Assembly (NCBI GenBank): GCA_003281225.1
Contig: QCCP01000014.1
Coordinates: forward strand, 1 to 45,350
Reading direction: 5' to 3'
Source: Prochlorococcus sp. AG-347-L20
GTDB lineage: Bacteria > Cyanobacteriota > Cyanobacteriia > PCC-6307 > Cyanobiaceae
Length of the DNA: 45,350 bases
The position numbers and the translations under genes were made by a program. Within the stretch, counting starts at the first letter, position 1. The number at the start of each line of letters is the position of its first letter. Below are positions 13,679 to 41,999 of this stretch, one piece after another. A model generated the notes under the pieces. It was not told where the DNA came from, made no database searches, and saw nothing but the letters and a program-made list of their open reading frames with translations.

Positions 13679-13949
13679 AATTTTCTGAATGATGCAGTAA
13701 TTCAAACGATATAAACAAAATCTGTCTTAATTTTTAAAAAATGAATATAAATCAAAGAGCATGTTTTTCAATTTTGACGAGAGTTTTGAATCCGTTCTAA
13801 TTACTGTTATTAAAAAACAATTTTTTTATTTATAATTAGTTAACATATCTAATATATAATTATACTAAATGTTCTATATACTGTTCTAAAAATTATAGCA
13901 AACATACTTGATTATATCTCTGGCTAGCCACTATTTGACAAAAAAGACA

Positions 13950-14007: not shown

Positions 14008-14026
14008 AACTCCCCGGGCGGGATTC
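14008..14026 (-). repeat. tRNA-Asn 3'-end remnant (att-like copy 1)
   Basis: Nineteen bases, AACTCCCCGGGCGGGATTC on the plus strand, are identical to the 3' end of the tRNA-Asn gene at 24047-24065 and then diverge. This is the longest remnant of the four and the most distal from the intact tRNA. Confidence 0.9.
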
Positions 14027-15847: not shown

Positions 15848-16459
15848 ATGTGCTTAAAGTCAAAAAATATTATTCAAAATCTTCAACGTCAAGATAAGAC
15901 TTTTAGTTTAATAGTTAAGCAAATAGGATATATAAATTTAGAAAAAAAAGAACTTAACTTTGAAGAATTAATAAAAATTATAATTAATCAACAACTTTCA
16001 AACCATGTATCACGAATAATTTTTCAACGTTTAAGGGACAAAATTAATAACTCCGAGCCAATCTCACCTTTATCAATAATTGATTTTGATAATAAAAAAC
16101 TCAGGGACTTAGGTATTTCTCATTCAAAGATTTCTTTTATGAAAGAGACTGCTAAATATTTTATGGATTATCCTTACATAATAAAAAAATGGGAAACCAT
16201 GAATGATGAAGATGCAAAAATTAAAATTCAAGAATTAAAGGGGTTTGGTCCTTGGTCTGCAAATATTATTCTATTATTTTATATGGGTAGAAATAATGTA
16301 TTTCCATATAATGATTCAACTTTACAAAAAGCATATTTTAAAATTTATGGTGAAAGATTATTATCAAATCTCTCTCAAATTGATTGGGCAAGACCTTATA
16401 GAAGTATAGTTGCGAGATATCTTTGGAAGTGGGTAGATAATGGTGCGAAAAAAATCTAA
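15848..16459 (+). CDS. HhH-GPD DNA glycosylase (AlkA-like)
   Basis: 203 residues; the ATG follows the preceding stop directly. The helix-hairpin-helix LKGFGPWSANIILLF (130-144) leads to the catalytic Asp156 in VFPYNDSTL, the standard HhH-GPD arrangement of 3-methyladenine glycosylase II. No C-terminal iron-sulfur cysteines exist, so it is AlkA-like rather than Nth/MutY-like. Location within a 5-methylcytosine R-M cluster suggests it may repair damage linked to methylation, such as T:G mismatches from deaminated 5-methylcytosine; that substrate is inference. Plain alkylation repair is the alternative. Confidence 0.8.
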   Translation: MCLKSKNIIQNLQRQDKTFSLIVKQIGYINLEKKELNFEELIKIIINQQLSNHVSRIIFQRLRDKINNSEPISPLSIIDFDNKKLRDLGISHSKISFMKETAKYFMDYPYIIKKWETMNDEDAKIKIQELKGFGPWSANIILLFYMGRNNVFPYNDSTLQKAYFKIYGERLLSNLSQIDWARPYRSIVARYLWKWVDNGAKKI

Positions 16460-16502
16460 TTATTTATATAAATCTTATACACTCGTGAAATTAAATTCAG
16501 TC

Positions 16503-17510
16503 TTAAGATCCATTTTTTCTTAAATAATTATAAATAATTGATGAGAATTTTCTAAAAATATCTACTGTTACTGAGTTACCTGCTTGTTTATATAGTTGCG
16601 TATTTGGTACGTCTCTGGGTAACTTGAAAGTTCTTGGGAATCCTTGAAGGTTAAAGCATTCTCTAGGTGTAATTTTTCTAATACCATAATCATCCTTAAT
16701 TAAAGGAACATTATGACCCCCTGTCCCCATATTTGCTGTCAAAGTTGGACATACTCCACTTTTGTTTTCTCTTACATAAACTCGTCTCCACTGATAAAAA
16801 GTATTCTTTTTAGTAATAGATCCTATTAAATCATCATAATTATATTTATCTTTCCTGTAGTAATACTTTTCATCTACAGCATTACTTTCTAAAAAATCAG
16901 AAATAGGTTTAAGTTTAATCTTTTTTTCAGTAGGAAATAGTTTACTTAAATATGTTGATTTATGTTTTGAAGAATCAAAACAAATATCTTTGTCCTCCAG
17001 AAAACAAAAAATAAAAGTTCTTTCTCTGTTTTGTGGAACACAAGTATATTCACAAGTATTCATAATTTTTGAAAGAACACAATATCCAGTATTTTCTAAA
17101 CTTTCTTGAATTATCCTAAATGTTTTTTTCTTATCATGAGTATAAATATTTTTAACATTTTCTAGTAAAAGAACTTGTGGTTTTTTGGGTAACTCATTTA
17201 TTAATCTTATAATTTGAAAAAAGACATCGCCTCTTTTATCTACAAATCCTTTTTGATAACCTGCAACAGAAAATGCCTGACAAGGAAAACCCCCAACAAG
17301 TACGTCAACTGCTTCTAAATCTTTTCCTTGTAATTGATTAATGTCTATTTCATAAAATGGGTGAGAGAAATTTTTTCTATAAGTTTTAGAAGCATATCTA
17401 TCAATATCTGTTCCCCATACAATTTTAAATTTTTCTTTATCAGAGAAACCAAGTTCGATTCCACCTACTCCTGAAAATAATCCTCCTACCTTATAAACCT
17501 TATTTTCCAT
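16503..17510 (-). CDS. DNA (cytosine-5) methyltransferase
   Basis: 335 residues from ATG 17510; a TTG two codons upstream is less likely. Motif I LFSGVGGIELGF, catalytic PCQ at 76-78 (GGFPCQAFSVAG), ENV at 117-119, QNRERTF near 162, and C-terminal motifs RKITPRECFNLQGFP and YKQAGNSVTV are all present. The region between about 190 and 285 is the variable target-recognition domain. It should protect host DNA from the nuclease encoded opposite. All conserved motifs are intact, so it is probably active. It converges with the glycosylase gene, 43 bp away. Confidence 0.95.
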   Translation of the reverse strand: MENKVYKVGGLFSGVGGIELGFSDKEKFKIVWGTDIDRYASKTYRKNFSHPFYEIDINQLQGKDLEAVDVLVGGFPCQAFSVAGYQKGFVDKRGDVFFQIIRLINELPKKPQVLLLENVKNIYTHDKKKTFRIIQESLENTGYCVLSKIMNTCEYTCVPQNRERTFIFCFLEDKDICFDSSKHKSTYLSKLFPTEKKIKLKPISDFLESNAVDEKYYYRKDKYNYDDLIGSITKKNTFYQWRRVYVRENKSGVCPTLTANMGTGGHNVPLIKDDYGIRKITPRECFNLQGFPRTFKLPRDVPNTQLYKQAGNSVTVDIFRKFSSIIYNYLRKNGS

Positions 17511-17631
17511 ATTCAACTATATTAAAAATAACATTAAAAATACTCTAGATATTTTATGAGAAATGTTTCAAATCTTTAATGATATTTTTAAATTTTATAA
17601 TCTAATTTTCTTCAGATCTCAATCAGAGTAT

Positions 17632-17680: not shown

Positions 17681-17694
17681 GAACTCCCCGGGCG
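17681..17694 (-). repeat. tRNA-Asn 3'-end remnant (att-like copy 2)
   Basis: GAACTCCCCGGGCG matches 24046-24059 exactly, then diverges into GAAAGTCGGG, which is shared with copy 4. Here the junction also forms a perfect inverted repeat: CTCCCCG (17684-17690) and CGGGGAG (17700-17706) around a 9-nt spacer. Confidence 0.9.
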
Positions 17695-17712
17695 AAAGTC
17701 GGGGAGACCTCT

Positions 17713-17742
17713 CCTGATAATCCCTGAAAGAACCTGATATAA
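17713..17742. repeat. Three 10-bp-spaced CCTGA repeats
   Basis: CCTGA recurs at 17713, 17723 and 17733, exactly one helical turn apart, beginning 32 bp from the start of the att copy. The same block sits at the same offset in unit D. It looks like a protein-binding array for recombination, but no binding data exist. Confidence 0.65.
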
Positions 17743-17764
17743 GAAATCAAAGAAAAAGATATAT

Positions 17765-17786
17765 TTCACGACCATTTCACGACCAT
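17765..17786. promoter_or_regulatory. Left iterons of unit B (two TTCACGACCAT units)
   Basis: Two head-to-tail 11-bp units at 17765-17775 and 17776-17786. The second overlaps the first two bases of the alpA ATG (17785-17787). Probable recombinase or AlpA binding sites that can also control alpA. Confidence 0.8.
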
Positions 17787-18033: not shown

Positions 18034-18324
18034 ATGTCTTCATTAAGATTTTTACTTATTCTTATTTTTTCTTTTTCCTTATCATCAAATGCGACTCCAA
18101 CCATCAGAGAGCAGTATTCAGATGATTATTTAAAGTTAGTTGAATTAATCTTTGATAATCATAATGTAGACATAATGAATAGGGATTTTTATGAAGGTTA
18201 TAGTATGAATTTTGAAGACAAATGCAATGCTGAAGTTAAATTAAAGACTTACTCATCTTTGTTAAATATTTTCAAAATAAATATATGTACCAATCAAAGT
18301 ACAATTATTTCAGAAAGAGTGTAA
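18034..18324 (+). CDS. Small exported protein, cross-unit paralogue family (unit B)
   Basis: 96 residues. A typical signal peptide (SLRFLLILIFSFSLSSNA, cut predicted near residue 20) is followed by about 75 residues with two cysteines, in FEDKCNAEVKLK and FKINICTN. It resembles the first gene of unit C: both share VELI/IELI, N-x-VDI-x-NR, C-x-AEV-x-LK-x-YS and F-x-(I/V)-N-(I/V)-C. The two cysteines could pair in the periplasm. Function unknown; no toxin or enzyme motif seen. Confidence 0.6.
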   Translation: MSSLRFLLILIFSFSLSSNATPTIREQYSDDYLKLVELIFDNHNVDIMNRDFYEGYSMNFEDKCNAEVKLKTYSSLLNIFKINICTNQSTIISERV

Positions 18325-18805: not shown

Positions 18806-18849
18806 TTCACGACCATTTGAAAACTATTTCAAGACCATTTCACGACCAT
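18806..18849. repeat. Right iteron array of unit B (four 11-bp slots)
   Basis: Slots at 18806 (TTCACGACCAT), 18817 (degenerate TTGAAAACTAT), 18828 (TTCAAGACCAT, one change) and 18839 (TTCACGACCAT). The order iteron, degenerate slot, iteron, iteron is the same as in units C and D. Confidence 0.85.
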
Positions 18850-18877: not shown

Positions 18878-18911
18878 TAAAAAAGACCTCAAGTGAATTA
18901 ACTTGAAGTCT
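18878..18911 (-). terminator. Rho-independent terminator at att copy 3
   Basis: Minus-strand stem AGACTTCAAGT...ACTTGAGGTCT with a short loop, followed by TTTTTT. It is nearly the same sequence as the terminator at copy 2, and similar to that of the real tRNA gene. Confidence 0.75.
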
Positions 18912-18926
18912 GAAGAACCCGTAATT

Positions 18927-18943
18927 GAACTCCCCGGGCGGGA
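18927..18943 (-). repeat. tRNA-Asn 3'-end remnant (att-like copy 3)
   Basis: GAACTCCCCGGGCGGGA matches 24046-24062 exactly (17 bp), then continues CTTAATT instead of the T-loop sequence. Confidence 0.9.
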
Positions 18944-18961
18944 CTTAATTAATAAATCAAA

Positions 18962-19001
18962 TGCCTTGTTATGCCTACATGTGCCTAGTTATGCCGAGAA
19001 C
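18962..19001. repeat. Four 10-bp-spaced TGCC(T) repeats
   Basis: TGCCT at 18962, 18972 and 18982 and TGCCG at 18992, exactly 10 bp apart, beginning 35 bp from the start of att copy 3. They take the place of the CCTGA array of units B and D. Confidence 0.65.
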
Positions 19002-19011
19002 GAATTGATGC

Positions 19012-19033
19012 ATAGCGAACATATAGCGAACAA
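19012..19033. promoter_or_regulatory. Left iterons of unit C (two ATAGCGAACAT units)
   Basis: ATAGCGAACAT at 19012-19022 and ATAGCGAACAA at 19023-19033, tandem, 85 bp from the start of the att copy and 33 bp before the first cargo start codon. They could control the exported-protein operon. Confidence 0.8.
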
Positions 19034-19066
19034 ATTAATATTGTTATAAAGGTAAATTGAGGAATA

Positions 19067-19354
19067 ATGAAAAAAATTTATTTTTTAAGCTCTCTCTTTT
19101 TATTTTTAATTCCTTCGGTACATTCAACCCCAGAAGTTATAACCGAATATGATGAAAAATATTCAGAGGTTATTGAATTAATCATGGAAAAAAACAAAGT
19201 TGATATAGAAAATAGAGGTTTATATCAATTTTCTTTTTTAAAATTTAAAAACAATTGTGAAGCTGAAGTACAGTTAAAGCACTATTCTCCATTAATAGAA
19301 GTTTTTCAAGTTAATGTTTGCAAAAAGACTTCAATCGTATCAAAAGCAGAATAA
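19067..19354 (+). CDS. Small exported protein, cross-unit paralogue family (unit C)
   Basis: 95 residues with a GAGGA ribosome site. The signal peptide (KKIYFLSSLFLFLIPSVHS) is followed by a short mature part with two cysteines, in FKNNCEAEVQLK and FQVNVCKK. It is homologous to the unit B protein at 18034-18324 over the whole mature part. It is the first gene of a three-gene cluster; the next gene's ATG overlaps its stop by one base. The role is unknown; export with paired cysteines points to a periplasmic or surface location. Confidence 0.6.
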   Translation: MKKIYFLSSLFLFLIPSVHSTPEVITEYDEKYSEVIELIMEKNKVDIENRGLYQFSFLKFKNNCEAEVQLKHYSPLIEVFQVNVCKKTSIVSKAE

Positions 19355-19893
19355 TGAAAATATTCCTTACCAAGTTCATGAAATCTACAAAAATAGTAAA
19401 AAAATTATTTTTGGGATTTACTATTTTTTTTACTACACATAATATTCAAAGTATTGCATGTGAATATATAGGGAGCTCAAATCAATGGAGAGCATCCCCA
19501 GGGGGGTTCTGGTTCAAAGTAGTTCCTTCATATAAAGATTCATCAAGTATTCCATTTAATAAATGTACTCTCACTTCTTCTAAAGAAAAATATGATCCTG
19601 GAGGATTTAATTATCTAACTAATTGGGTAATACAACCACACACCGATAGATGGAAATATTATGAGTGCGGCAAACATAAAATTGTTTTCATAGTTAATTA
19701 TGTTTATGATGGATGGTCTATTGCAGATACAACTGGTGCATATCATCAAATAAGAAATTTTTCGAAGAAAGAAGAGAAATTTCATTGCTCTTATGAAAAA
19801 TACAAAGATTCCTATAGGACTACAAACTTTAGAGGTTCAAAGCTAATTCTTGTTGAAAGAACTAATTACAGTCCAATAAAATTTGATTTTTGA
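19354..19893 (+). CDS. Exported cysteine-containing protein (unit C)
   Basis: 179 residues from ATG 19354 (TAATG overlap with the previous stop); ATG 19378 is an alternative that gives a cleaner signal peptide. Hydrophobic segment KLFLGFTIFFTTHNIQSIA precedes a mature part with four cysteines (ACEYIG, FNKCTLTS, YECGKHK, FHCSYE) that could form two disulfides, and many aromatic residues (WRASPGGFWFKV, WKYYEC, YDGWSIADTTGAYH). The WSI-D-T-GAYH stretch looks ordered and structured. I do not recognise the family. Confidence 0.6.
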   Translation: MKIFLTKFMKSTKIVKKLFLGFTIFFTTHNIQSIACEYIGSSNQWRASPGGFWFKVVPSYKDSSSIPFNKCTLTSSKEKYDPGGFNYLTNWVIQPHTDRWKYYECGKHKIVFIVNYVYDGWSIADTTGAYHQIRNFSKKEEKFHCSYEKYKDSYRTTNFRGSKLILVERTNYSPIKFDF

Positions 19894-19903
19894 ATGGAAA
19901 TTA

Positions 19904-20437
19904 ATGAATAAGAATTTATTGATTTTATTTTTTGCAAACTTTATCTTTTTAAATCCAATAAATTCTAATATGCTTTCGGGTTATTTATTAAGTAGTAATA
20001 ATGATCCCGTACCATTAAAACAGGTTGAAAAAGAAAATTATATTAAAGAACAAAAAATTCTAGAAGAAAAAAGAAAACAAGCAGAAGAACGAAAAATTAA
20101 AGAAATAAACTCTATCATTAAAGGCAAATGGGAAGGTAGAATTCAAAAATGGGATATTGAATCAAGTTTTATTTTCACTATTCGAGAAGACAGGGTTTAT
20201 CTTCAAAAATTTGGGAAAACAGATGACTGGATAAAGTTTTTTGGTCCAGAGATAGTTAGCTTTAAATGGTATAAAGATGAAGGACAGCTAGTTTATAAAG
20301 GATATGAGGCTCGAGGAAAATTAAGTACTTGCAAAATAAATTTTAATTTTGAATATACAATGATAGCTTCTAGAAAAGTCTGGCTCATGACTATTAACTG
20401 TGGTAAAAAAAATTATTATTTATTTAAAAAAGCTTAG
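19904..20437 (+). CDS. Exported protein with coiled coil and beta domain (unit C)
   Basis: 177 residues from ATG 19904. A signal peptide (NLLILFFANFIFLNPINS) is followed by a charged helix rich in Lys/Glu (about residues 42-70, EKENYIKEQKILEEKRKQAEE), then an apparently all-beta part: GKWEGRIQKWDIESSFIFTI, YLQKFGKTDDW and LVYKGYEARGKL, ending KNYYLFKKA. This GxWxG...-type start is typical of small lipocalin-like or 'avidin/lipocalin' barrels, but I cannot assign it. Two cysteines (TCKINF, INCGKK) may pair. It is the third gene of the cluster. Confidence 0.55.
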   Translation: MNKNLLILFFANFIFLNPINSNMLSGYLLSSNNDPVPLKQVEKENYIKEQKILEEKRKQAEERKIKEINSIIKGKWEGRIQKWDIESSFIFTIREDRVYLQKFGKTDDWIKFFGPEIVSFKWYKDEGQLVYKGYEARGKLSTCKINFNFEYTMIASRKVWLMTINCGKKNYYLFKKA

Positions 20438-20497
20438 GGTTTAGACAAGGTTATTATTAATATATAAATTAATTATGCATCGATTAATTATAAAAAT

Positions 20498-20541
20498 ATA
20501 GCGAACATTTATTTCCTGGATAGCGAACATTTAGCGAACAT
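20498..20541. repeat. Right iteron array of unit C (four 11-bp slots)
   Basis: Slots at 20498 (ATAGCGAACAT), 20509 (unrelated TTATTTCCTGG), 20520 (ATAGCGAACAT) and 20531 (TTAGCGAACAT). The spacing and order match units B and D exactly, with a different word. Confidence 0.85.
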
Positions 20542-20610
20542 TTTTGAAAATCAGAAGTAAATTTAAGCCGCTATGATTTCGTTAATTTTTCCATTTACTT
20601 TTATTTCCAA

Positions 20611-20634
20611 TAAAAAAGAGACCTTTTAGGTCTC
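20611..20634 (-). terminator. Rho-independent terminator at att copy 4
   Basis: Minus-strand perfect stem GAGACC/GGTCTC with a 5-nt loop, followed by TTTTTT, 24 bp from the tRNA remnant. Confidence 0.75.
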
Positions 20635-20658
20635 CATAAGTCTTTTTAGGAAGTTAAG

Positions 20659-20672
20659 GAACTCCCCGGGCG
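20659..20672 (-). repeat. tRNA-Asn 3'-end remnant (att-like copy 4)
   Basis: GAACTCCCCGGGCG, identical to 24046-24059, then GAAAGTCGGG... shared with copy 2, which shows the two units have the same left end. Confidence 0.9.
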
Positions 20673-20690
20673 AAAGTCGGGTTGATATTT

Positions 20691-20720
20691 CGTGATAGTG
20701 CCTGACTGAACCTGACATAA
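20691..20720. repeat. 10-bp-spaced CCTGA-type repeats of unit D
   Basis: CGTGA at 20691, CCTGA at 20701 and CCTGA at 20711, 32 bp from the start of the att copy, the same offset as in unit B. One unit differs by one base. Confidence 0.6.
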
Positions 20721-20742
20721 GAAATCGAAGAAAAAGATATAT

Positions 20743-20764
20743 TTCACGACCATTTCACGACCAT
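20743..20764. promoter_or_regulatory. Left iterons of unit D (two TTCACGACCAT units)
   Basis: Tandem units at 20743-20753 and 20754-20764. The second overlaps the alpA ATG at 20763, exactly as in unit B. Confidence 0.8.
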
Positions 20765-20977: not shown

Positions 20978-23872
20978 TTATTCAAACTCGAAATGTAACT
21001 TGTTCAAAAGTTTTATTTGTTCTTCATTAAGTTCATTCGCTTTGAATTTTTCTCTTTGTTCATCGCACCATGGACCTAGATACTTACTCCAAAAAGGATT
21101 TGTATGTCCTTCTCTTTCATAGAATTTCCTTAGTGATTCATAACCCTCACTCCAAATTATAAAATCTTCCTTACCCCAATCAAAATTTAATGATTCTAGA
21201 AATTGAATCTTTTCTTTATCTAATAATTTTCTTTTTTTATTTAATCTTTGGGTAAGACACCAATTACCCAGTGGTGTTCCTGTAGGAATAATTGAATGTC
21301 CTTCTTTATCAAAAATCTTTTTCAATTCAAGAAAATTATCTTTCCACTTTTGCTCATGTAGATCCCATGGGAATTTAATAGAATTTAATAGTTCTATCTG
21401 ATCTTCCAGTAAGAATTTATCTTTATATTTTTGCCTTTGTGTCAAACACCAATTACCAAGTGGTGTTCCTGTAGGAATGCACGAATCTCCCACCTCTTCA
21501 AAATACTCTTTTAATTGGAGAAAATTATCATTCCATCTCTTATCGTGAAGATTCCAAGGAAATTCAATACTATTCAAAAGTTCTACTTGTTTTGGAGTTA
21601 ATAATTTTGAATTAAACTTATTTCTTTGAGTTCCACACCAATTACCCAGTGAACTACCCATTGGTATATCTGTATCACCATCCTTTTCGTAAATCTTTTT
21701 TAATTGGAGAAATTTATCATTCCATCTCTTATCGTGTTTATTCCAAGTAAATTCAATACTATTCAAAAGTTCTACTTGTTTTGGAGTTAATAATTTTGAA
21801 TTAAACTTATTTCTTTGAGTTGCACACCAGTTGGCAAGTGTACTTTCTGGTGAGACATCTGAATTACCCTCCTTTTCATATATATTTTTTAGATTCCCAA
21901 ATTTTTCAAACCAATCCTCAGATGAATTATTAACTAATAAAGTTTTAATAGATTGAGAAAATTTATGAGAAATTTTTTCTGGTATATCAAAAATAAATTT
22001 TTCCAATGTAGTATTCTCAAAATTAATTTTATCTTTACTCCCTTTGGAAATTCTCAATTGATCTATACATTCCATTAAATAATCATCTTGGGATTTCAAA
22101 GCAATTACAACTTGCCAAACCTTTTCAAAATTACTCAAAATTAATTCTTGATCTAAAGACTGATCCTTTGAGATATATAAAGGTATTATTATTATCCCTT
22201 TTCTTTTTTGTTCACTTTTTCGAATTGCTCGTCCTACCGCTTGAATAATATCTGTTTGACTATACTTTGGATTTATAAATGCTATTCCATTTAATGAGGG
22301 GACATCCACTCCTTCAGATAAGCATCTAGCATTAGAAAGAATTCTTCTTTCATTGAGTTCAAGAATATTCAATTGGTGTAATTTCCTATTTCTCTCTGTC
22401 GCTCTCATAGACCCAGAAATATAATCACAGTAGATTTCACCTGCCGGCATCTCCGAATGTCTTATGTGTTTAAAAGTCTGTTTAAAACTATTAGAAAAAT
22501 TTTTAGCGTTTTTAATTTTATTATGAAAAGTTATTATCCTTTTTAGGTCATACTTTTTAATTGCTTTAATTAAAGCGATTTGAGAGGCGACAGTTTCCGC
22601 ATCCAATATTGTTTGATCATCAACTTTTATTAAATCTCTACTAACTATTTGCTTTTTAATCATCTCATCATCTACACCAATTACTAAAACTTCATAATCA
22701 GATAAGAGATTTTGAGAAATTGCATCGGAAAATTTGAGTTCATAAAGAACCTCTCCAAAGACTGAATGATCATCCATAGATACAACTTCAAAATCCATTT
22801 CATGAGATTTGTTTTTGATATTTTTTGAAAGAATTCTTGGTGTTGCTGTAAAAAATAATCTTTTTGTTGCCTTTATTTTCTTCTCATCCAGTACAGACCC
22901 AAAAGCATCAGAAACCTTTCCAGCACATCTATGTGCTTCATCTGCAATCACTAAATCAAAATCATTCGTATCATGAAATTCCTGTGCTCCAATTATTAAA
23001 GATGCTGACTGATAAGTCGCAAAAACTACTTTAGATCCACTTTCATCAAGAAAATTTTTAATTTCTAAAATCTCACTTGTAACTGAAACTCCAATTTGTG
23101 AAGTATTTGAAATCCACTGATCGCCTGATTTATCTTTTGCAACTGACTTATCAGAGCATACACAAATCCATTTAAAAGGTTCATTCAATTCAGCATTCCA
23201 CTCCTTTAAAGTTTGTGAAAGCAGACTCAGTGAAGGGACAAGAACTAGGACCTGTTCTGATTTAAGTTTTTCTTTAATCCAAAGAGATGTAAGTGTTTTC
23301 CCAGTTCCACATGCCATCAAGACTTGTCCTCTATCAGCAGTTTCTAATCCTTTAGATACTGCTTGAATTGCTTCAATTTGATGATTTCTTGGTTTCTTCT
23401 TATTTTTTCTCTTCCCTTGGTTTAGATCATCAACAGAATTTGGATAATCTATTTCTGCTTGCCTGAACTGTTCTAGTAAAAAACATACAACCTGCTTTTC
23501 TTGTCGATTTATTACTTGTTGTGCATTCTTTCCAATTCCATCAGTACTAGCGATAAGCAATCTTCCATCAATTTTTGAATCATTAGATTCACTTAAAAAA
23601 CTATCAATTTCAGACTTTTTAATATCATAATCCGGTGAAACACATTTAGATTGAACTGCCCAGGTCTTGCCATTTTTATGAGTAAAAATTAAATCAATTC
23701 CACAATCAGGACCCCATCTCTTTGGATATTCATTCCATAACCAAACATTTTCGACTTGACTCGACCAGGTTGGATCGGTTTTGAGAAACCACTTAACAAA
23801 TTTTTCAAACTGTCTCCCCTTAATCCTTATATCAGGATCTAAAGAGGCATAAAATTCATCAAAAGTTGCCAA
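20978..23872 (-). CDS. Mrr-like nuclease / DEAH helicase with five C-terminal helicase-associated repeats
   Basis: 964 residues from a TTG start; the next Met is at residue 186, inside the helicase, so TTG is favoured. An N-terminal restriction-type nuclease has GID (Asp60) and WAVQSK (Gln74, Lys76), a D...QxK core. A superfamily 2 helicase follows: Walker A GTGKT 189-193, DEAH 311-314, FTATPR 341-346, and motif VI QAVGRAIR 544-551. The C-terminus has five helicase-associated (HA) repeats with tryptophans at 654, 717, 780, 843 and about 909. No methyltransferase partner is nearby. A stand-alone defence or DNA-processing role is likely but unproven. Confidence 0.82.
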   Translation of the reverse strand: MATFDEFYASLDPDIRIKGRQFEKFVKWFLKTDPTWSSQVENVWLWNEYPKRWGPDCGIDLIFTHKNGKTWAVQSKCVSPDYDIKKSEIDSFLSESNDSKIDGRLLIASTDGIGKNAQQVINRQEKQVVCFLLEQFRQAEIDYPNSVDDLNQGKRKNKKKPRNHQIEAIQAVSKGLETADRGQVLMACGTGKTLTSLWIKEKLKSEQVLVLVPSLSLLSQTLKEWNAELNEPFKWICVCSDKSVAKDKSGDQWISNTSQIGVSVTSEILEIKNFLDESGSKVVFATYQSASLIIGAQEFHDTNDFDLVIADEAHRCAGKVSDAFGSVLDEKKIKATKRLFFTATPRILSKNIKNKSHEMDFEVVSMDDHSVFGEVLYELKFSDAISQNLLSDYEVLVIGVDDEMIKKQIVSRDLIKVDDQTILDAETVASQIALIKAIKKYDLKRIITFHNKIKNAKNFSNSFKQTFKHIRHSEMPAGEIYCDYISGSMRATERNRKLHQLNILELNERRILSNARCLSEGVDVPSLNGIAFINPKYSQTDIIQAVGRAIRKSEQKRKGIIIIPLYISKDQSLDQELILSNFEKVWQVVIALKSQDDYLMECIDQLRISKGSKDKINFENTTLEKFIFDIPEKISHKFSQSIKTLLVNNSSEDWFEKFGNLKNIYEKEGNSDVSPESTLANWCATQRNKFNSKLLTPKQVELLNSIEFTWNKHDKRWNDKFLQLKKIYEKDGDTDIPMGSSLGNWCGTQRNKFNSKLLTPKQVELLNSIEFPWNLHDKRWNDNFLQLKEYFEEVGDSCIPTGTPLGNWCLTQRQKYKDKFLLEDQIELLNSIKFPWDLHEQKWKDNFLELKKIFDKEGHSIIPTGTPLGNWCLTQRLNKKRKLLDKEKIQFLESLNFDWGKEDFIIWSEGYESLRKFYEREGHTNPFWSKYLGPWCDEQREKFKANELNEEQIKLLNKLHFEFE
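20981..21913 (-). repeat. Five tandem 63-residue helicase-associated repeats
   Basis: Each unit has the plan W-x(5-7)-L-K..(F/Y)-E..G-(D/N/H)..(I/V)(P/S)..(S/T)-x-L-(G/A)-N-W-C-x-TQR-x-K...LL...Q-(V/I)-(E/Q)-L-L-(N/E)-S-(I/L)-x-F-x-W. The period is 189 bp; the stretches at about 21552-21640 and 21741-21829 are nearly identical, which points to recent duplication or gene conversion inside the array. The last unit is the most diverged (GPWCDEQREK). Confidence 0.85.
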
Positions 23873-23926: not shown

Positions 23927-23970
23927 TTCACGACCATTTTTAAACTATTTCACGACCATTTCACGACCAT
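23927..23970. repeat. Right iteron array of unit D (four 11-bp slots)
   Basis: TTCACGACCAT at 23927, degenerate TTTTAAACTAT at 23938, then TTCACGACCAT at 23949 and 23960. It begins 55 bp upstream of the nuclease-helicase start codon and may overlap that gene's promoter. Confidence 0.85.
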
Positions 23971-24022: not shown

Positions 24023-24048
24023 CCTGAAGTTTTTACTTAGAAATTGAA

Positions 24049-24120
<72 letters not shown>

Positions 24121-24130
24121 ATATAAAATG

Positions 24131-41063: not shown

Positions 41064-41999
41064 ATGGCCCTTAAGACTTTAAACAGAATAAATAAAAAAG
41101 ATTTGAAATGGCCAAAAATCATAATCGCAATTCTTAGCACTATAGGCATAGTTGATACAGGTTCGATTACTTTAAAAAACTGGGGATTATTTACTTCGCT
41201 TTCATGCCCAGGGATAAAAAATGGTTGTGAAACAGTTTTAAGTAGTCCTTGGGGTACGTTATTTAAAAATAATCAAGTTAATATACCTCTCTCATTAGCT
41301 GGATTTATAACATATTTAACAATATTAGTAATCACAATAATACTCTCGCTTAATTTAATTTCCCCAAAAGAAAAACTCAATAAGTTTTTATGGTGGTTAG
41401 TATTTCTAATTTCTTGTGCGTCATCAACATTTAGCTTTTTATTGATAAATATAATGTTTTTTAAGATTCAAGCATATTGCTTTTTTTGTATTCTTTCAGC
41501 AATTTTATCGTTTTCTATCTTTATAATTTCTATGATTGGAGCAAAATTCGAAAGTAGAGAACCTATGATTTTTAGAGGTTTCATTGTAGCCATTAGTGTC
41601 CTGCTGGGGGGCCTAATTTGGTCAACAAACGTTGACCCCTCTAATGCTATTGATGTTGCTAACCCAACTGAAAATGTATCGCCAATAATCACCACTTCAA
41701 GCTCTCCCCAGAAGGTAAAGTTCGCAAAATTTTTAAGTGAAAACAATATTGTTATGTATAGTGCATACTGGTGCCCGCATTGCCACGATCAGAAACAATT
41801 ATTTGGTAAAGAGGCAGTTAAAGAATTAAAAGTAGTTGAGTGTGCTAAAGATGGTAAAGATAATGAGTATGAGTTATGCCAAACGAAAGGAATAAGTGGA
41901 TTTCCTTCTTGGGAAATATATGGAGAAATTATTAGTGGTACTCGTGACTTAAATGAATTAGCAACAAAAACCGACTATCAGGGAGATCTTAATTTTTAA
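41064..41999 (+). CDS. VKOR-thioredoxin fusion
   Basis: 311 residues. A four- or five-helix VKOR domain has Cys48 and Cys55 in the loop, and Cys139-x-x-Cys142 (YCFFC) as the quinone-side active site. A C-terminal thioredoxin domain carries CPHC at 237-240 plus two more cysteines (VECAKDG, ELCQTKG). It passes electrons from periplasmic or lumenal disulfides to quinones, forming disulfides in exported proteins. It converges with nadB, overlapping by 11 bp. Confidence 0.93.
   Translation: MALKTLNRINKKDLKWPKIIIAILSTIGIVDTGSITLKNWGLFTSLSCPGIKNGCETVLSSPWGTLFKNNQVNIPLSLAGFITYLTILVITIILSLNLISPKEKLNKFLWWLVFLISCASSTFSFLLINIMFFKIQAYCFFCILSAILSFSIFIISMIGAKFESREPMIFRGFIVAISVLLGGLIWSTNVDPSNAIDVANPTENVSPIITTSSSPQKVKFAKFLSENNIVMYSAYWCPHCHDQKQLFGKEAVKELKVVECAKDGKDNEYELCQTKGISGFPSWEIYGEIISGTRDLNELATKTDYQGDLNF

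Follow-up and report, generated by a model that had tools for sequence, protein, structure and literature searches.

The window, i.e. the whole stretch of 45,350 nt analysed here, is one contig of the Prochlorococcus sp. AG-347-L20 assembly (genome of 1.65 Mb) and carries a tRNA-Asn gene, beside which five exact copies of the att core CTCCCCGGGCG bound four tandem units that we named A to D (Table 1). Unit B measures 1246 bp, unit C 1732 bp (18930-20661) and unit D 3387 bp; the flank to the left of the outermost core at 14010 resembles, by eye, the outer flank in loci L024, L026 and L030. None of the four units encodes an integrase: the two PF00589 matches of this genome sit on other contigs, no 11-bp arrays are found near them, and the only array-like feature in their surroundings is one 12-bp pair several kb away from the integrase. 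Likewise, scanning eight unit ORFs with Pfam revealed no integrase or transfer genes and no recognisable replication initiator, five of the eight having no match at all.

Table 1. Features of the tRNA-Asn locus, with positions in the window
Feature	Position	Strand	Basis or remark
tRNA-Asn(GTT), integration target	24048..24121	-	ARAGORN; att core derives from its 3' end
att core CTCCCCGGGCG, outermost copy, left edge of unit A	14010..14020	+	exact match
att core copy, left edge of unit B	17684..17694	+	exact match
att core copy, left edge of unit C	18930..18940	+	exact match
att core copy, left edge of unit D	20662..20672	+	exact match
att core within tRNA-Asn 3' end	24049..24059	+	ARAGORN, exact match
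Unit B core-proximal block, TGA at +20/+30/+40, 10-bp phase; proposed AlpA/excisionase sites	17695..17760	+	
Unit B head array, TTCACGACCAT x2	17765..17786	+	word match
Unit B alpA, 60 aa	17785..17967	+	Pfam Phage_AlpA, E 1.5e-12; ATG overlaps second word
Unit B cargo, 96-aa protein, hydrophobic N-terminus by eye	18034..18324	+	
Unit B tail array, word-11 bp-word-word, middle copy with 1 mismatch	18806..18849	+	word match
Unit C core-proximal block, TGCC at +21/+31/+41/+51	18941..19006	+	
Unit C head array, ATAGCGAACAT + ATAGCGAACAA	19012..19033	+	word match
Unit C cargo, 95-aa protein, in alpA slot of B/D	19067..19354	+	
Unit C cargo ORFs, 191 and 184 aa	19318..20437	+	no Pfam match
Unit C tail array, ATAGCGAACAT-11 bp-ATAGCGAACAT-TTAGCGAACAT	20498..20541	+	word match
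Unit D core-proximal TGA block	20673..20738	+	near-identical to block of L066/L068
Unit D head array, TTCACGACCAT x2	20743..20764	+	word match
Unit D alpA, 68 aa	20763..20969	+	Pfam HTH_17 and Phage_AlpA
Unit D cargo, 964-aa Mrr-like nuclease/helicase with HA domains	20978..23872	-	Pfam Mrr_cat_2, ResIII, Helicase_C, HA
Unit D tail array, word-11 bp-word-word	23927..23970	+	word match

Units B, C and D keep both att ends, that is, a core and a matching array of short words at either end, and in the slots where B and D have TTCACGACCAT, unit C has words of the ATAGCGAACAT type. Of their 11 positions, the two words have 7 in common and 4 different (joint pattern NTNNCGANCAT). Allowing up to one mismatch, the window contains 11 matches to TTCACGACCAT (0.43 expected), 10 of which belong to the arrays of B and D with one stray at 41221, and 6 matches to ATAGCGAACAT (0.53 expected), 5 of which lie in unit C with one stray at 13895. 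A reading of this DNA from the sequence only had described the different word of unit C as occupying the same distances as in its neighbours. Besides lying far above chance, the words indeed start equally far from the core in the head arrays (two tandem copies each, beginning 70 bp from the att core in B, 71 bp in C and 70 bp in D), and the tail arrays of all three units repeat the order copy-11 bp-copy-copy (spacings of 22 and 11 bp); the distance from the tail to the next core, however, is 120 bp in C versus 80 bp in B and 78 bp in D. In unit C, the five word copies over both arms agree to within one mismatch. No head word could be recognised in unit A. Upstream of each core, at about 18880-18929 and 20615-20661, a hairpin next to A/T runs can be made out by eye in the stretch that separates the core from the tail array; its sequence is, again by eye, not the same in the two word classes.

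The sequence-only reading had further noted that the core-proximal 10-bp repeats change along with the word, and this is borne out: TGA in B and D becomes TGCC in C. Such phasing is common in these elements, with TG present at +10, +20, +30 and +40 in 19, 34, 40 and 33 of 51 non-redundant blocks, respectively (shuffled maximum 13). Across 37 alpA-bearing units the block difference correlates with the word difference (rho 0.68, for pairs that are not independent), and near-identical TGA blocks accompanied by different words exist as well, e.g. in unit D and the integrase elements L066/L068.

As to gene content, alpA directly follows the head array in units B and D but is missing from unit C. 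Relatives of the 95-aa protein that takes its place there also come after the head in L030 and L031, and this protein is 35% identical over 91 residues to the 96-aa protein of unit B; the small cargo proteins of B and C are thus homologous despite the different words, so that related cargo occurs in what would be different address groups (see below). Defence-like cargo is seen in unit D (the Mrr-like nuclease/helicase) and in unit A (15848-17516, a C5 cytosine methyltransferase and an HhH-GPD protein). At 17785, at 20763 and in many relatives, alpA has its start codon on or directly next to the second word, and no clear ribosome site is visible by eye at these starts. Given this overlap, an integrase seated on the arm could shut off alpA.

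The arrangement recurs throughout the genus. Tandem ATAGCGAACAT arrays occur in 6 of 266 genus genomes, with two arrays in each and all six loci located at tRNA-Asn; tandem TTCACGACCAT arrays occur in 9 of the 266 (those of G437, G518 and G522, genomes with no integrase match, being counted without inspection), and AlpA relatives in 54. At tRNA-Asn, a tandem 11-mer follows 57 of 73 non-tRNA att cores at +60 to +76, a set of cores that is not a random sample since part of the loci were chosen for carrying alpA; dinucleotide shuffling yielded a mean of 0.07 and a maximum of 1 in 200 shuffles. Each of the 57 cores has 0 or 1 mismatch. The count uses 73 of 74 non-tRNA cores, one having been dropped for its short flank; it retains three 2-mismatch cores for their nearby alpA, none of them among the 57, and leaves out two alpA matches of G408 and one of G466. 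When the pitch was scanned from 7 to 15 bp, 11 bp was found in 59 heads, 12 bp in 3 and 9 bp in 1, all other values in none. The 57 heads sort into 13 word clusters, the largest being a continuum of 30 heads that includes TTCACGACCAT, TTCCCGACCAT and TTCGCCACCAT and has alpA in 30/30, as against 0/4 for the ATAGCGAACAT cluster.

The words match within an element. Of 48 units, 27 have at least two sites of the head word in their own tail and 21 have fewer; when five units are set aside because they are so short that the two windows trivially overlap, the count is 22 of 43. For tails of other units it is 55 of 1948. Heads with AAATGCCAC or TGACCCATTTT (L031, L139, L140, L142-L146, L161) have alpA, while a matching tail array is mostly absent. 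The layout is preserved even in cargo-less units of 256-257 bp from two genomes (L029, 12098-12354; L108, 8654-8911), where head and tail arrays are fused and have one word copy in common. In viral contigs we found no ATAGCGAACAT tandem and no integrase; words of the TTCACGACCAT family occur in 5 of these contigs, in stretches that contain no tRNA and no nearby att core except one with 2 mismatches in L092. A search for unit C in phages gave no match.

Relatives at the same tRNA-Asn site do encode a tyrosine integrase. In L024 and L065-L068 the order is core, TG block, two tandem words, alpA and integrase, with alpA directly upstream of the integrase, and elements at tRNA-Ser genes show the same layout, some with a 12-bp pitch. 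At several tRNA genes taken together, 20 of 23 full-length integrases have in their own unit an att core with a tandem pair at +58 to +80, the pitch being 11 bp in 8 and 12 bp in 12; of the three exceptions, L074 shows no clear pair, the unit of the L081 integrase contains none, and L082 has a pair for which no core could be located. The integrases of L083 and L084 have the opposite orientation and point to the tRNA end. Of 14 integrase loci with a tRNA (L081 set aside), all have word copies with at most 2 mismatches no more than 260 bp from the tRNA, and 12 have at least three such copies, compared with 0.02-0.34 for shuffled words. The words TTCCCCACCAT and ATTCCCAACAT are found both in integrase-bearing and in integrase-less units.

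The divergent tyrosine integrase of the relative G374 (439 residues) has matches in 24 of the 266 genomes, its own included. The 7.1-kb element that bears it also has a serine resolvase (L024, 8089-8706). A search of phage integrases returned best-ranked matches of only 25% identity over 92% of the query, and a PDB sequence search gave no match. No unit bearing ATAGCGAACAT or TTCACGACCAT arrays contains an integrase in the 266 genomes, many of which are incomplete; in G413 a TTCACGACCAT unit adjoins an integrase unit, which has another word. The autonomous partners that the sequence-only reading had envisaged for ATAGCGAACAT did not turn up: neither an integrase nor AlpA stands beside these arrays, and the 6 array-bearing genomes of 266 contain no integrase of the G374 superfamily at E<=1e-10.

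Both the word and its pitch are associated with the integrase. Among 18 integrases, word distance falls as similarity rises, with rho -0.35 for the N-terminal domain (13 of 5000), -0.39 for the catalytic domain (27 of 5000) and -0.21 for the core-binding domain (123 of 5000); the partial correlations are -0.16 for the arm domain given the catalytic domain (458 of 5000) and -0.24 for the reverse (186 of 5000). These 18 are the 23 full-length integrases without L074, L081 and L082, which have no word tied to a core in their own unit, and without L079/L080, near-copies of L078. On the integrase tree the pitch changes 3 times versus 6.5-6.6 times in shuffles (1 of 500 as low). Within eight integrases, a set without those of 12-bp pitch, N-terminal and catalytic domain both give -0.74. 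For five close integrases, word distance follows N-terminal domain identity (rho -0.85, 4 of 120 permutations), compared with +0.28 for the core-binding domain, -0.10 for the catalytic domain and -0.14 for AlpA. Judging from these comparisons, the word tracks the entire integrase when distant relatives are included, and the N-terminus is singled out by the five close relatives only; since the catalytic domain correlates equally over the 18 integrases, it is on these five that the N-terminal domain as reader rests, and we infer this role for the remaining integrases.

Within this group, L066 and L068 have a common word and arm domains that are 90% identical, but core-binding domains of only 63% identity; their catalytic domains (92%) and AlpAs (94%), too, are the most alike, and each of their core-binding domains is nearer (about 90%) to that of an integrase with a different word. 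The core-binding domains of both look exchanged with other integrases, a sign of intragenic recombination.

From the conserved geometry and the company the words keep, we consider it probable that the words are arm-type sites, that the TG repeats are excisionase sites and that B, C and D, having no integrase of their own, are addressed to integrases that act in trans. On this view a tyrosine integrase would bind the 11-bp words through its N-terminal domain, one arm offering two of them and the other three, on either side of an att core that derives from the 3' end of tRNA-Asn; an excisionase, either AlpA or a counterpart, would occupy the TG repeats that lie in 10-bp phase between the core and the head array. 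As their sites are present but an integrase is absent, B, C and D would need an outside integrase to move, so that they would be mobile only via an integrase that reads their word, supplied in trans or in cis from a neighbour. One address would be common to B and D. Because it has the other word together with an altered excisionase block, unit C most likely answers to a different integrase/excisionase pair directed at the same chromosomal target, and we infer that it is functionally orthogonal to B and D.

Alternatively, the words could have diverged neutrally, a single integrase tolerating both, so that no cognate protein was swapped. With 7/11 positions common to both words such tolerance is possible, a distinct integrase for either word was not found in the 266 genomes, and neighbours show no avoidance of common words: 1 of 17 adjacent pairs has a common word versus 0.99 expected by chance. 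This count, together with the word that B and D share, gives no support to the earlier suggestion that neighbouring elements at one att site would not cross-react, and active avoidance between neighbours is rejected. On the other hand, neutral drift would hardly keep all five copies of unit C, in both arms, within one mismatch, nor would it be expected to bring the ATAGCGAACAT word with a similar TGCC block back in six genomes. Furthermore, integrases with the most different words are 58-64% identical in the arm domain, as opposed to 90% and 72% for same-word pairs. We therefore regard neutral divergence as unlikely.

A further candidate reader is AlpA itself, in which case the words would be operators or excisionase sites and the swap in unit C would reflect a change of AlpA. 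The contact of the alpA start codon with the second word in many units and the presence of alpA throughout the 30-head cluster speak in its favour. Among 37 units that have a head word and encode an AlpA of 45 residues or more, however, AlpA identity and word distance show only a weak overall relation (rho -0.19): 27 of 666 pairs combine AlpAs of no less than 82% identity with words that differ by 3 or more mismatches (e.g. unit B and L026@7775, 86% and 5 mismatches), while 12 pairs have a common word with AlpAs at most 60% identical. Moreover, the segment STINR is invariant in 8 AlpAs accompanying five different words, and unit C carries its word with no alpA. AlpA as word reader is thus very improbable and was rejected. 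Of the sequence-only proposal that one machinery plan is kept while the cognate protein changes, the integrase part is supported by the trend among the 18 integrases and the AlpA part has to be given up, the pairs above being the outcome that the sequence-only reading had named as refuting for AlpA. Plasmid iterons, too, are short direct repeats one helical turn apart, but an origin of the arrays as iterons of a replication initiator, or as sites of an unrelated regulator, is the least probable explanation and was likewise rejected, as the arrays keep an almost constant distance to the att core at either end, even in the cargo-less units, and occur at several tRNA genes, sorting with the integrase.

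Extending the arm-site reading from this locus to the genus, we tentatively propose a modular address code, which we regard as quite possible though somewhat short of probable. At single tRNA sites in Prochlorococcus, an 11- or 12-bp word with a near-fixed place would divide many integrase-less islands into mobilisation groups, each moved by an integrase whose N-terminal domain reads the word; word and domain would be swapped as a pair without regard to excisionase, cargo or att core, and the groups would move separately in spite of their common chromosomal target. If true, this would explain how tiny islands with no integrase could move, and the word would be a readable label that pairs islands with helpers in a dominant photosynthetic genus of the ocean. 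The natural pairs of N-terminal domain and word, including a shift in pitch from 11 to 12 bp, would also lend themselves to studying the DNA choice of arm domains.

Tycheposons are mobile elements of Prochlorococcus that are transferred in virus particles or vesicles. The units described here are found in the same genus and resemble them in the tRNA-gene target, the cargo units and the tyrosine recombinase of autonomous relatives, the B/C/D locus being bordered by a tRNA gene with the tRNA 3' end repeated. According to the available text of PMC10872708, tycheposons carry cargo, span 4-200 kb, are bordered by one of seven tRNA genes and encode a tyrosine recombinase; B, C and D are below that range, with only 1.2-3.4 kb, and have no recombinase. 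Arm words are not mentioned in that part of the paper, and titles and abstract openings in the literature, a survey in which the original tycheposon paper was not covered, gave no description of arm words for these elements.

With regard to their missing integrase, the units are similar to CIMEs, integrase-less elements with both att ends kept that build up by tandem accretion (PMC5704250, in the portion available to us): B, C and D keep their att ends, have no integrase or transfer genes and stand in tandem at one RNA gene, with B and D retaining alpA, the presumed excisionase gene. Between genomes, their presence or absence differs. Integrase-less islands stacked in tandem at one RNA gene are also known from Dehalococcoides, where 15 ssrA islands have no integration modules; in contrast to our units, they are ascribed to serine recombinases in the accessible text of PMC3146451. 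Neither this text nor that of PMC5704250, as far as available, describes a family of alternative arm words.

The architecture itself resembles that of a lambda-type arm-site system, with repeats in both arms around the core that match within an element. About 110 residues precede the SAM-like domain of the integrase; they match no Pfam arm-binding family, and an AlphaFold model of low confidence (mean pLDDT 40.6) places three strands and a helix at the N-terminus, an order that PMC8138268 gives for arm-binding domains in a large subgroup of integrases. For Apl of phage 186, the excisionase sites are described as spaced by one helical turn (PMC7498355). A close parallel is offered by the attP of ICEMlSymR7A with IntS and RdfS, for which the available part of PMC11963761 reports five arm sites, TGKTGGTATC, and a wHTH excisionase, RdfS, binding with one molecule per 10 bp. 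Five arm repeats over two arms, a 10-bp-phased block on one side and a gene for a wHTH excisionase are common to both systems; as far as that source goes, our elements differ in that the arm word varies among elements with one att core and is repeated with a pitch of 11 or 12 bp.
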